This document shows positions 3 through 5,276 of a stretch of DNA of 64,000 bases, in pieces. Position 1 is the stretch's first letter; the number at the start of each line of letters is the position of its first letter. The stretch is from Glycomyces sp. TRM65418 (GTDB taxonomy: Bacteria > Actinomycetota > Actinomycetes > Mycobacteriales > Micromonosporaceae). Under the pieces are notes generated by a model. It was given only the letters and a program-made list of their open reading frames with translations. It had not been told where the DNA came from and ran no database searches. Both the position numbers and the translations under genes were made by a program. The DNA lies in assembly GCF_019710475.1 (NCBI RefSeq), contig NZ_JAJFAX010000001.1, forward strand, positions 186,001 to 250,000, written 5' to 3'.

Positions 3-1625
3 CTGCGGCTCATGGTCGTCTCCTGTCATCCCGTGCTCGCCCCCGAATCGCGAGTGGCGCTGACCCTCCGGGTCGTCGCCGGGCTGCGGACCGACGAGAT
101 CGCCCGCGCGTTCCTGGTCGCCGAGTCGACGGTGGCGCAGCGGATCGTCCGCGCCAAACGGGCGCTCGCCGCGAACCGTGTCCCGTTCGAGGTCCCCGCA
201 GGGCCGGAGCGGACGGCCCGACTGGCCTCCGTGATGGACGTGCTCTACCTCGTCTTCAACGAGGGCTACGCCGCGACCGGCGGCGACGACTGGCTCCGCC
301 CCGCGCTCTGCGATGAGGCCGTACGCCTGGCACGGATGCTCGCGGGCATGGCCCCCGACTCGGCCGAGGCCCACGGGCTGCTCGCGCTCATGGAGCTGCA
401 GCACAGCCGCCGCGACGCCCGCGTCGGTCCGGACGGCGCGCCGGTCCTGCTCCAGGACCAGGACCGCTCGCGATGGAACGCCGACCGGATCCGCGCCGGA
501 TTCACGGCGCTCGTGCGCGCCCGGCAGACCGGTGCTCCCGCGGGGCCGTACGTGCTCCAGGCCGCCATCGCGGCCTGCCACGCCCGGGCCCGGTCGGACG
601 CCGACACCGACTGGGGACAGATCGCCGCACTCTACGAACTGCTGATACGGGCGGCCCCTTCGCCGGTGGTGGCGCTCAACCGCGCCGTCGCCGTGGCGAG
701 GGCGCGCGGGAGCGAGGAGGGTCTGCGGCTCACCGAGCCCCTGCTGTCCGAGCCTGCGCTCGCCCGGTATCCGCTGCTGTTCGGCACTCGGGGCGACCTG
801 CTCGCCCGACTCGGGCGGGTGACCGAAGCCCGCAGGGAGTTCGAGCGGGCCGCGGGCCTGACCGCCAGCACTCCGGAACGCGACGTCTGGCTGCGCCGAG
901 CGGCCGAGCTGCCGCGCGCCGCGTCGTACGAGGGGCCGTCGCTGGGCGCCGCGGCCGAGCGCTTCCTCGACCGGCCCGATCTGCGCCCGGGAACCGCGCG
1001 ATCCTACGGCCAGACCCTCGGCCGGCTGCGCCGCGCGCTCGGCGACGACCTGCCGTTGACCGAACTGTCGCCCGAGGCGGTCGCCGGCGTCTTCGCCGAG
1101 ACGTGGCCGCGGGCCGCTCCGGCCACATGGAACCGGCACCGGGCGGCCGTGCGCGCCTTCGCCGCGTGGGCCGGCACCGGTCCGCTCGACCGGTTCCTCG
1201 ACCGGCGCTGGGCCCCACGCGGACGGGTGCGTCCACTGTCGCCGGACCAGGTGACCGAACTCGTCGAACGAGAGGCCACCGCGCTGCGCGAGCGGGTCTT
1301 CTGGCGCCTCCTGCACGAGAGCGGGGCGTCGGCCGCTGAGGTGCTCGCGCTCGACGTCGACGACCTCGACCTGGAGGCGCGACGCGCAGGGCAGGACGCG
1401 ATCACGTGGTCTGGGGGGACCTCCGAGCTCCTGGCCGAGCTGATCGCAGGCCGTGTGCGCGGTCCGGTCTTCCTCGCCGACCGACGGCCGGGCCCCGGCC
1501 GACCGCGGCGACCGCACGACCTGTGCCCGCACACCGGCCGCGGCCGACTGTCGTATCCGCGAGCGGCACTCTTGTTCAAGCGGGCGTCAGGCGGCGCGAC
1601 ACTGCGGGCCCTCTCCGGCGCCTGA
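3..1625 (+). CDS. ECF42-type sigma factor (5' partial) fused to a degenerate tyrosine recombinase
   Basis: The reading frame is already open at base 3 (L-R-L-M-V-V-S-C-H-P), so the gene starts outside the window and sigma region 2 is missing. From the ATG at 12, residues 9-45 are a sigma region 4 helix-turn-helix (ALTLRVVAGLRTDEIARAF). Residues 60-300 match the TPR-like C-terminal extension typical of ECF42 sigma factors (DVLYLVFNEGYAA; SPVVALNRAVAVA). From about residue 304 the same frame continues into a core-binding domain (TWNRHRAAVRAFAAW) and a tyrosine recombinase catalytic fold (FWRLLHESGASAAEVLALDV). The first catalytic Arg position reads Ser or Ala, the usual G-K of the beta hairpin is changed, and the frame stops at TLRALSGA where an HxLRH box is expected, so recombinase activity is unlikely. 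ECF42 genes usually sit beside a YCII/DGPF gene, which would lie upstream. The sigma assignment is confident. Whether the fusion protein is functional is not known. Confidence 0.8.
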   Translation: MRLMVVSCHPVLAPESRVALTLRVVAGLRTDEIARAFLVAESTVAQRIVRAKRALAANRVPFEVPAGPERTARLASVMDVLYLVFNEGYAATGGDDWLRPALCDEAVRLARMLAGMAPDSAEAHGLLALMELQHSRRDARVGPDGAPVLLQDQDRSRWNADRIRAGFTALVRARQTGAPAGPYVLQAAIAACHARARSDADTDWGQIAALYELLIRAAPSPVVALNRAVAVARARGSEEGLRLTEPLLSEPALARYPLLFGTRGDLLARLGRVTEARREFERAAGLTASTPERDVWLRRAAELPRAASYEGPSLGAAAERFLDRPDLRPGTARSYGQTLGRLRRALGDDLPLTELSPEAVAGVFAETWPRAAPATWNRHRAAVRAFAAWAGTGPLDRFLDRRWAPRGRVRPLSPDQVTELVEREATALRERVFWRLLHESGASAAEVLALDVDDLDLEARRAGQDAITWSGGTSELLAELIAGRVRGPVFLADRRPGPGRPRRPHDLCPHTGRGRLSYPRAALLFKRASGGATLRALSGA

Positions 1626-3319: not shown

Positions 3320-3925
3320 TCACCTTCCTTCGGTCGCGTCGGCGAGCGTCTTGCGGCCGGTCACGACCAGCAGCACGTCCTTGACGGGCAGGCGCAGCTC
3401 CTCGCCGTCCCCGACTGCCGCATCCGCGTCGGCGGCGACCAGTCGCCGCCCGGTGAGGTCGACGCCGAAGTGGGCCAGGTTGCGCGGGCCCGCCGCGCTC
3501 AGGACCAGGCCGATGCGCTCGGCCGGAGGAGCGGGCAGCCCCAACGGCTCGGTGATGTCGAGCCCGTGGACGACCTCGTGCGAGAGCGCGCCGGCTCGCC
3601 CTCCCCCGGGCGGCGACCACGGATGCCCGATGTTGGACCGGTAGAGCGCGGCCAGCTCCCGGTCGGTCATCGCCGACGCCGCCCGCCGAGCGTCGCGGTC
3701 GGCGAACACGTCGAACCGGAACCGGGCACGCATCATCCCGCCGAGGAATCCCGGCCCGGACAGGCGGAACGGCATCGTCATGTGCGCCAGTACCTCGCGG
3801 ACGCGCCAGCCTTCGCACAGCGAGGCCTCCGCCCACTGCGCGGGCTCCAAGTCGTCGAAGACCGCCGAGAGCCGCTCGCGCTCAGCGCGCGTCTGCTCCG
3901 CGAATCGGGGATCGTCGCGTTCCAT
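3320..3925 (-). CDS. Maleylpyruvate isomerase family mycothiol-dependent enzyme (MDMPI/DinB fold)
   Basis: This 201-residue protein shows the MDMPI N-terminal pattern of the DinB-like four-helix bundle: LSAVFDDLEPAQWAEASLC, then WRVREVLAHMTMPF, whose His is the usual metal ligand, and a later His in LSHEVVHGLDITEPLG. Members use mycothiol or bind divalent metal, and most have no assigned substrate. The ATG at 3925 is preferred over an upstream in-frame start at 3958 because GGGAAGGA lies 7-8 bases before it. The gene sits 60 bases downstream of the ECF sigma gene and 10 bases before the YjbR-HhH gene, which suggests one transcription unit. Confidence 0.8.
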   Translation of the reverse strand: MERDDPRFAEQTRAERERLSAVFDDLEPAQWAEASLCEGWRVREVLAHMTMPFRLSGPGFLGGMMRARFRFDVFADRDARRAASAMTDRELAALYRSNIGHPWSPPGGGRAGALSHEVVHGLDITEPLGLPAPPAERIGLVLSAAGPRNLAHFGVDLTGRRLVAADADAAVGDGEELRLPVKDVLLVVTGRKTLADATEGR

Positions 3926-3985
3926 GCCGGTGTCCTTCCCTGTTCGGTCGTGCTTCACCGCTTGTACGACCGGACCGGCGCGGAC

Positions 3986-4957
3986 TCATCGGTCGAGGTG
4001 CTCGGGGAGCCCGAATTCCGCGAACCGCCCGCCCGAGCCCAGGAACGTGACGGTCTCGGACACCCGCATCTCGCGCAGCTCGACCAGGATGAGGGCGAAC
4101 GGGACCAGGCGGCCCTCGGCGTCGGGGCGGTACTGCCCGAACCCGGCCGAGCCGTTGACGGCGGTCGGGAGCAGCCGGTCGCCTGCGCACGCCTCGCTGC
4201 GGGCCATCAGCGCGGCGATCCGCGCCCCGCCGCGCACCCACCAGGCGAACGGCGGCATCGAGGTGGCCGCGTCCTCCCGCAGCAGCGCGGTCAGGCCCGC
4301 CACGTCGTGCGATTCGAAGGCGGCGACGTAGCGCCGCAGCAGCTCCCGCTGCCGGGGGTCGGCGGGGTCGAAGACGTCGACCGGTTCGGGGCGATCGGTC
4401 TCGAGGGCGGCGCGGGCGCGCTGCAGCGAGCTGTTGACCGCCGCGACCGTGGTTTCGAGGATCTCGGCGGTCTCGCGGGCCGAGAACGAGAGGACGTCGC
4501 GCAGCACCAGGGCCGCGCGCTGGCGGGGCGTCAGCCGCTGCAGCAGGGCGATGAACGCCAGGCGGACCGTCTCGCGTTCCTGGACGACCTCGCCGGGGTC
4601 CGCCGTGCCGAACAGGCGCCGGTCGGGCATCGGCTCGACGAACCGCTCCGGCGGCAGCGGCGCACCGAGTCCGCCGCTCTCGGCGGCCGGTCCGAGGTCG
4701 ATCGCGAGGGCCCGGCGGCGGGCGCCGCGGAGCATGTCGATGCAGATGTTCGTGGCGATCCGGTGGACCCAGGTGGTCAGCCGGGCTCGGCCGGGGTCAT
4801 AGCGATCGGCGCTGCGGGCCGCGCGGATGAGGGTCTCCTGCACCGCGTCGTCGGTGTCCGCGGCCGATCCCAGCAGGCGGTAGCAGTAGCGCGTCAACGG
4901 GGCGCGAAGCGATTCGAGTTCCTCGACCGCGATGGCGGTGCCGTTCATTGCATCCAT
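3986..4957 (-). CDS. ECF sigma factor with C-terminal SnoaL-like domain
   Basis: This 323-residue protein carries sigma region 2 at about residues 15-75 (LTRYCYRLLGSAADTDDAVQ, TTWVHRIATNICIDML) and region 4 at about 145-195 (LTPRQRAALVLRDVL; ARETAEILETTVAAVNSSLQ). Residues 210-320 form a SnoaL/NTF2-like extension (YVAAFESHDVAGLTALLRED; TSMPPFAWWVRG), as in the SigG/SigJ-like ECF group that lacks a classical anti-sigma factor. GGAGG lies four bases before the ATG at 4957; an ATG nine bases further in is the alternative. The frame stays open upstream to 5095 but without family similarity. It probably directs the small operon below it. Confidence 0.85.
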   Translation of the reverse strand: MDAMNGTAIAVEELESLRAPLTRYCYRLLGSAADTDDAVQETLIRAARSADRYDPGRARLTTWVHRIATNICIDMLRGARRRALAIDLGPAAESGGLGAPLPPERFVEPMPDRRLFGTADPGEVVQERETVRLAFIALLQRLTPRQRAALVLRDVLSFSARETAEILETTVAAVNSSLQRARAALETDRPEPVDVFDPADPRQRELLRRYVAAFESHDVAGLTALLREDAATSMPPFAWWVRGGARIAALMARSEACAGDRLLPTAVNGSAGFGQYRPDAEGRLVPFALILVELREMRVSETVTFLGSGGRFAEFGLPEHLDR

Positions 4958-5276
4958 ACAGCCTCCGCGGCCATTGTGCCCGCTGGGTCCGTCCATGCGG
5001 CGACCTCGGTCGCCCGAACCGGATGCCGGTCCGGCTCGGCTTCGGACCGGCCGGCCCTCGCGGTCCGCGACCGCACCGGTTCCGGGCGCCGGCAACGGCT
5101 GACGAGTCCGGTCCGGCGCGGGAGCGGCGTCCCCGCAACGGCCGTTGCGGTGCCACCGCCGGTGGCGCGAGACGGGCGGTCCGGCTGGCCGCCCGAGAGG
5201 GGCGGCGCGCTCCAGCGCGCTTCGCCGGCGCCGGGCGAGGTCGCCGCGTCGCTGTCGGCCTGCGCTCGCTTTGCGA
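4958..5276. other. Intergenic region between the ECF sigma and AraC genes
   Basis: This 319-base gap must hold the ECF sigma promoter and the 3' end of the AraC transcript. A GC hairpin with arms GCGCGC at 5215-5220 and 5225-5230, and another with GGGCGG at 5174-5179 and CCGCCC at 5189-5194, could end the AraC transcript. I could not assign the sigma promoter or any gene here. Confidence 0.4.

Follow-up and report, generated by a model that had tools for sequence, protein, structure and literature searches.

We analyzed a window of 64,000 nucleotides from Glycomyces sp. TRM65418 (contig NZ_JAJFAX010000001.1, positions 186,001 to 250,000), which opens inside a gene that fuses, in one reading frame, an extracytoplasmic function (ECF) sigma factor of the ECF42 family to a tyrosine recombinase. 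It is a real fusion, both old and conserved. Its recombinase half has lost the catalytic residues, and a 14-bp motif stands upstream of its operon, in most loci at the presumed -35 position; in those loci an arginine of sigma region 4 (Arg161) is mostly replaced. Comparison of these sequences makes it quite probable that the dead recombinase half binds the motif as an ancestral half-site and steers its own sigma factor. A fuller scenario is one that we would neither favor nor disfavor: the reading of the -35 element would have passed from sigma4 to the dead fused recombinase, whose site became the promoter, with two holoenzymes perhaps sitting on the repeat in a dimer-like manner and firing both ways, and with successive states of this hand-over still visible.

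The open frame is uninterrupted from window position 3 to 1625 on the plus strand and comprises the last 540 of the 651 codons of the fusion open reading frame (ORF). The full gene lies at G000:C1:185670-187625 (G000 is the window genome), its 5' part being cut off by the window edge; the ATG at G000:C1:185670, equivalent to window position -330, overlaps the stop codon of an upstream YCII/DGPF gene in the sequence ATGA. In the full protein, Pfam places Sigma70_r2 at residues 17-79 and Sigma70_r4_2 at residues 115-166, both above cut-off, and DUF6596 at residues 184-284 with 125.3 bits against a cut-off of 27. No match to sigma region 3 was found in the full protein at an E value of 0.01, in keeping with the region 2 plus region 4 layout of ECF42. 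Since sigma2, sigma4, and DUF6596 are all found in the full gene, the sigma factor is complete despite the part outside the window. The TPR_2 match in the ECF42 extension is weak and below cut-off, Phage_int_SAM_1 (residues 438-501) is barely above cut-off, and Phage_integrase (residues 523-572) is below it. The parts of the gene within the window are the following.

3..1625, plus strand: residues 112-651 of the fusion ORF and its stop codon; residues 1-111, including all of sigma2, lie upstream of the window
12..167, plus strand: sigma region 4, residues 115-166 (Pfam and alignment)
150-152, plus strand: codon of Arg161 in the sigma4 recognition helix (alignment, residue checked)
219..521, plus strand: DUF6596, residues 184-284 (Pfam)
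522..899, plus strand: remainder of the ECF42 C-terminal extension, TPR-like, residues 285-410 (weak TPR_2 match and homology to unfused ECF42)
900..941, plus strand: junction of the two halves, residues 411-424 (comparison of fusion loci)
942..1190, plus strand: core-binding (SAM-like) domain, residues 425 to about 507 (Pfam, high-confidence model, and Foldseek)
1191..1622, plus strand: truncated remnant of the catalytic domain, residues about 508-651 (alignment)
1329-1331, plus strand: Ser554 at the Arg-I position (alignment); the Lys hairpin is deleted, and the C-terminal end reads TLRALSGA

A preliminary description of this stretch had proposed that one frame joins a complete ECF42 C-terminal extension to a tyrosine recombinase with altered Arg-I and Lys positions, ending where the HxLRH box should be. 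The full analysis bears this out in each respect: one open frame (3-1625) holds Pfam domains of both halves, DUF6596 scores above cut-off and the TPR-like remainder is homologous to unfused ECF42, the Arg-I column is Ser554 and the Lys column a gap, and TLRALSGA followed by the stop stands where relatives read TLHQLRHS...Y. With HxLRH and Tyr absent as well, the window protein is, by its residues, not a functional tyrosine recombinase. The fusion is not the product of a frameshift or of an assembly error near base 910, which the same description had raised, as 67 other loci share it in an uninterrupted frame. By-eye inspection of the bases after the stop codon in the window revealed no programmed frameshift that would restore the lost C terminus. 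A structure model of the 540-residue window part, built on two sequences, had a mean predicted local distance difference test (pLDDT) score of 50 and was set aside.

Searches with the recombinase half covered 300 genomes of the family, 348 of the order, and 394 of the class, in overlapping sets. After removal of duplicate loci of the same genes, we counted at least 69 fusions in several actinobacterial families, a lower bound because the genomes were sampled and only the better matches examined; 44 of these (including the window's own and that of Pseudonocardia humida) came from one set of loci and 25 from a further set. An uninterrupted frame is present in 68, so that a search for the same domain order elsewhere, proposed in the preliminary description, yielded 67 further uninterrupted fusions plus L118, the 69th, which has a masked stretch inside and its end in another frame. 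The P. humida fusion (L023) is 674 amino acids long, with a recombinase half 72% identical to that of the window. In eight fusion genomes checked for DUF6596, 2 to 15 matches were found in each, some of them fragments, and the recombinase-half searches found one fusion in each. Two other Pseudonocardia loci deserve mention in their own right. In Pseudonocardia nigra (L024, positions 1-918), a recombinase half at a contig edge follows about 68 residues unlike ECF42; in Pseudonocardia sp. CNS-139 (L026, positions 3500-4700), the sequence is frameshifted across several frames and has a short tandem duplication, and represents either a pseudogene or a sequencing error.

Catalytic residues were scored after 67 fused and 45 standalone rows had been aligned together; L118, L026, and L141 were left out. 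Arg-I is kept in 1 of 67 fused rows versus 45 of 45 standalone rows, Lys in 0 of 67 versus 42 of 45, and Tyr in 0 of 67 versus 34 of 45, with up to 11 of the 45 standalone rows lacking single catalytic residues, partly from broken frames. This scoring, also suggested in the preliminary description, thus reveals near or complete loss of all three residues across the fused rows. The window protein and most fused proteins lack roughly the final third of the catalytic domain, which leaves the two-domain fold incomplete. Sixty-two of the 69 fused frames end within 45 residues of the RLSYxRA motif, and 54 within 30; the common end lies near the position at which standalone relatives read TLHQLRHS. 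L086 continues for 53 residues past RLSYxRA in sequence unlike a recombinase, and L118 stands outside this comparison. The five remaining fusions (L165, L166, L168, L169, and L186) are longer, keep HxLRH, have Phe or Leu in place of Tyr, and form one clade beside the truncated fusions. This arrangement, in an unrooted tree, suggests that fusion came first, that catalysis then died, and that the tail was trimmed later. The fused recombinase might be imagined still to recombine promoter DNA as an expression switch, given the HxLRH box of the longer fusions and an inverted repeat, described below, with the geometry of a recombination site; with Tyr and Lys kept in none of 67 rows and Arg-I in one, we regard this as highly improbable.

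Both halves fit a single origin, with purifying selection on each. A single branch separates fused from standalone recombinase halves (67 fused and three edge or broken rows versus 36) with a Shimodaira-Hasegawa-like approximate likelihood ratio test (SH-aLRT) support of 98, and the same split is recovered with the core-binding part alone at 91; L118, L026, L141, and nine partial standalone rows were not used in the recombinase trees. One branch likewise separates fused from unfused ECF42 halves (69 versus 39; SH-aLRT, 99). Distances of the two halves correlate (Mantel r of 0.58, with 0 of 1,000 permutations as high), although the nearest neighbor is the same in both halves for only 28 of 67 rows. 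For 26 pairs, made up of the 25 closest and the pair of the window with P. humida, the ratio of nonsynonymous to synonymous substitution rates (dN/dS) is 0.15-0.57 for the recombinase half and 0.09-0.33 for the ECF half. Sixty-nine columns of the recombinase half are at least 90% uniform in the fused rows, and in 60 of these the residue is the majority residue of 13 standalone sisters. In a model of the recombinase half, the core-binding helices have pLDDT values near 97 and a poor stretch falls at model residues 185-212; Foldseek matched this model, with modest template modeling scores, to XerA, lambda integrase on DNA, and Tn1549 integrase, and at lower ranks to the recombinase-fold regulators SroF, MrpR, and YopR. 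The other possibility in the preliminary description was that the fusion is a decay product. Some relatives are indeed broken or frameshifted. The frame is uninterrupted in 68 fusions, however, each half has dN/dS below 1, and operon and promoter are conserved; a functionless decay product or an assembly artifact is so improbable that we give it almost no weight.

The YCII gene of the conserved operon immediately precedes the fusion in 60 of the 62 loci whose flank spans 200 nt or more and, once longer flanks were taken, was found upstream in 69 of 69, with the right orientation in all 46 newly examined pieces; the upstream gene of the window genome has a YCII Pfam match. In the 250 nt before the YCII gene, the half-site RTTMCCTGTCACAT is present with at most two mismatches at all 69 fusion loci, and it is present in none of the 24 promoter regions of unfused ECF42 genes (15 of the 39 unfused genes had no usable promoter region). 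The best match has no mismatch in 60 fused loci, one in 7, and two in 2, compared with four to six mismatches in all 24 unfused regions, the level of shuffled sequence. The suggestion in the preliminary description that the recombinase half has become a DNA-binding extension is strongly favored by this difference.

The motif TGTC[AG]-N10-13-CG[AT]CG is found in 59 of 69 regions, inside a 14-mer 0-3 bases off RTTMCCTGTCACAT. Together with a variant in G746, an inverted repeat with the same substitution in both arms, this gives 60 of 69 loci in which the half-site occupies the presumed -35 position and is followed by a -10-like CGACG. The ten regions without the combined motif (the five longer fusions, G872, G746, G421, G398, and the window genome) all have the half-site, with 0-1 mismatches, in another arrangement. 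In the five longer fusions and G872, half-sites precede a separate promoter-like sequence by about 40-70 bp, as a tandem pair in five loci and singly in G729. P. humida has two tandem half-sites, the second followed by CGACGT. The canonical TGTCGA promoter pattern was found in 12 of 24 unfused but 3 of 69 fused regions, and TGTCGA alone in 13 of 24 versus 10 of 69.

At 46 of the 59 promoters, a second arm with at most four mismatches completes an inverted repeat (0.5 expected from shuffles), with spacers of 6 in 38 cases, 7 in 6, and 8 in 2. Fifty of the 69 fusion loci have a divergent gene for a DUF998 membrane protein, compared with none of the 24 unfused loci, the latter a weaker control because less upstream sequence was available (median, 680 versus 1,512 nt). 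Because both arms mostly carry a -10 and the DUF998 gene diverges from the operon, the repeat would mostly be a two-way promoter. Upstream of the window itself, a divergent DUF998 gene is found at L004 2478-3155 on the minus strand; it is likely a partner or target of the circuit.

Exact matches to RTTMCCTGTCACAT number 24 in 16 of 44 whole genomes, and every one lies, by coordinates, at the fusion operon. There were no exact matches in 21 congeners without the fusion, in 6 further genomes with only unfused or partial recombinase matches, or in G746 with its variant site, and the reversed pattern had none in the 44 genomes. A stricter pattern that includes the -10 was found in 10 of 12 genomes, at the fusion locus only; it was missing from G000 and G067. 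The circuit thus looks private to its own locus. Such a property would simplify its testing and might lend it to use as an orthogonal promoter system.

In a blind inverted-repeat search beside 45 standalone recombinase rows, many had such a repeat some 160-210 bp before the recombinase region; the arm sequences vary from one recombinase clade to another. Random sequence gave a best repeat with two mismatches in 5 of 40 trials and three in 24 of 40; therefore, only repeats with 0-1 mismatches or with a clade's arm sequence carry weight. In 11 of the 45 rows (L025, L103-L109, L122, L174, and L179), one arm shares 10-13 of 13 bases with the fused half-site, and all 11 fall in or next to the sister clade of the fused halves; L104, L105, and L108 are near-identical and so do not count as three independent cases. 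Sister-clade arms are of the kind TGTGACAGAGAAT-N5-ATTCTCTGTCACA, and those of L025 are TATGACAGGGAAT-N5-ATTCCCTGTCACA, the right arm being the fused half-site. Many more distant standalone rows gave no repeat or an unrelated one in this search. From their form and position, we presume the standalone repeats to be recombination core sites. In a half-site scan of 81 loci in the standalone set (matches of L110, a fusion locus, were not counted), most of L025, L103-L109, L122, L173, L174, L179, and L180 had a further single half-site, with at most three mismatches, about 77-100 bp from the repeat and near the gene start. Among the distant standalones, L115, L117, L146, L148, L153-L156, L172, L175, and L181 have upstream repeats of other, clade-specific sequence. 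Such clade-specific repeats could make it feasible to match recombinases to their sites across the family.

The likeness to arms beside sister standalone recombinases could also mean that the half-sites at fusion loci are the targets of another protein (perhaps a standalone recombinase of that cell) or are left over from an attachment site. Neither would account for the narrow distance between half-site and -10-like element in 59 of 69 loci or for a position in front of the YCII gene, more than 1 kb from the recombinase-coding part. Moreover, the single match to the recombinase half in G000 is the fusion itself, yet additional recombinase matches do exist in some of the other fusion genomes. 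We consider this explanation very unlikely.

Residue Arg161 of the window protein aligns to R176 of E. coli SigE, a known -35 contact. It is kept in 39 of 39 unfused ECF42 proteins and in all six fusions that have a separate promoter downstream of their half-sites, as opposed to 3 of the 60 whose half-site occupies the -35 position, where it is replaced by Ala, Gly, Glu, Thr, Ser, or Asp; kinship of the loci inflates these counts. Such varied replacements indicate repeated change. The position holds Ala and Glu in the two loci G421 and G398, and P. humida keeps the arginine.

Sigma4 of the truncated clade may instead have evolved by itself to read TGTCAC, the recombinase half serving regulation or dimerization only and making no DNA contact. 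Its recognition helix has changed in that clade, and the half-site does include TGTC, with which the -35-like TGTCGA of 13 of the 24 unfused regions also starts. This account, however, offers no reason for a 14-bp match to the repeat arms beside sister standalone recombinases. It is also at odds with the six fusion loci whose half-sites stand apart from, and upstream of, a separate promoter-like sequence, and with the unfused ECF42 regions, where the 14-mer never occurs with fewer than four mismatches. The replacement of Arg161 by many residues, acidic ones included, looks like relaxation rather than a new specificity. Overall, we find recognition by sigma4 alone improbable.

The course of events that we favor, in which the fused domain itself contacts the half-site, can be outlined as follows. 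An ECF42 sigma factor was fused in frame to a tyrosine recombinase, which lost its cutting residues and, in most of the descendants found, also its last third, and kept its DNA-binding part. The most likely target of the kept part is the ancestral core half-site RTTMCCTGTCACAT in front of its own YCII-sigma operon, and binding would bring the sigma factor and RNA polymerase to this one regulatory region. Six loci may represent an early state, with half-sites upstream of a canonical-like ECF42 promoter and the domain acting as a built-in activator tether. In the putative later state (60 of 69), the half-site lies at the presumed -35; with it there and Arg161 mostly lost, the recombinase domain has probably taken over much of -35 recognition. 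The paired half-sites in inverted-repeat geometry would form a two-way promoter, and in 50 of 69 loci this promoter faces the DUF998 gene. The copies in the window genome and in P. humida look transitional. As a whole, the pattern suggests that the promoter switch arose from an old recombination site. The fusion, its conservation, the catalytic loss, the motif with its placement, and the pattern at Arg161 can be read from the sequences; from these we infer that the domain binds DNA, that it steers RNA polymerase, that the repeat is occupied in a dimer-like manner, and in which order the states arose.

Several observations weigh against this interpretation. The window protein itself keeps Arg161, and its genome has an exact half-site (G000:C1:185262-185275) with no recognizable -10 after it. 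G421 and G398 have only a half-site that faces away from the operon, yet they have lost Arg161. Just three of the six loci assigned a separate promoter have the canonical TGTCGA pattern; for the other three, whose sequences are degenerate, the assignment was made by eye. In 35 of 46 repeats a -10 accompanies the left arm as well, and the symmetry may thus partly reflect back-to-back promoters. Among sister standalone recombinases, L111, L114, and L121 had no repeat in the blind search, and L173 and L180 have related but imperfect sites only. As to sampling, the motif was taken from related loci, so the 69 of 69 loci that contain it are not independent, and the query favored truncated relatives. 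Finally, the recombinase half is found in only 1 of 22 genomes of the window's genus, and some related copies are broken, masked, or at a contig edge (L024, L026, L077, L091, and L118).

ECF42 sigma factors are known, as is a dead recombinase acting as a repressor, for which MrpR is the nearest precedent in the parts of the literature available to us. Like the fusion, ECF42 proteins such as Sven_0747 of Streptomyces venezuelae combine sigma2, sigma4, and a DUF6596/TPR-like extension and have a YCII/DGPF gene upstream; the fusion differs in its additional recombinase-derived domain and recombinase half-site, and most fusions lack the TGTCGA-type promoter and have lost Arg161 of sigma4. The TPR extension of ECF42 has been proposed, in the passages available to us, to work via protein contacts (PMC8999054, PMC9023288). 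The C-terminal domains of ECF41 and of other ECFs with fused domains regulate the sigma factor, as is predicted here; in the review passages available, such extensions are described as ligand or protein binding, and none as a second sequence-specific DNA-binding domain. MrpR, according to the accessible part of its description, is a phage repressor with a recombinase fold and no recombinase function (PMC10516654). MrpR/YopR of prophage SPbeta and SroF of phi3T have the fold of the fused domain, and MrpR is a DNA-binding regulator without recombination, as the fused domain is predicted to be; these are, however, separate phage repressors, whereas the fused domain is truncated, attached to a sigma factor, and predicted to direct transcription. 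The 11 standalone recombinases with matching arms have core-binding and N-terminal catalytic regions and an identical or nearly identical half-site in common with the fusion, but their catalytic residues are mostly intact, they have no sigma factor, their inverted repeat lies beside the recombinase gene, and in the few flanks read no CGACG -10 follows the site.

In the portions of the literature accessible to us, we found no published account of a sigma factor-recombinase fusion, although a mention in the primary ECF42 or ECF classification papers is possible; the words integrase and recombinase do not occur in the main texts of PMC11119718, PMC11256431, PMC8999054, PMC8103513, and PMC9023288. 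What appears to be new is a sigma factor with a dead recombinase domain and a recombinase site rebuilt as a promoter, the mechanism being deduced from sequence comparison. If correct, promoter recognition by a sigma factor could be transferred to a foreign DNA-binding domain, with several states of the hand-over visible by comparative genomics, and a recombinase and its site would have been domesticated jointly into a dedicated switch.

Two features of the window near the fusion gene remain to be described. Just past the gene, positions 1700-1723 hold a copy of the 3' end of tRNA-Leu(CAA), possibly an attachment-site remnant; the intact tRNA-Leu(CAA) gene is at C1:132409-132483, 55 kb upstream of this copy. 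A genomic island between the two was considered and could not be established; the examined stretch of five congener loci that match the downstream flank contained no tRNA gene. Farther on, at positions 3986-5095 on the minus strand, lies a second gene that, as judged by eye, is ECF sigma factor-like and has a C-terminal extension.
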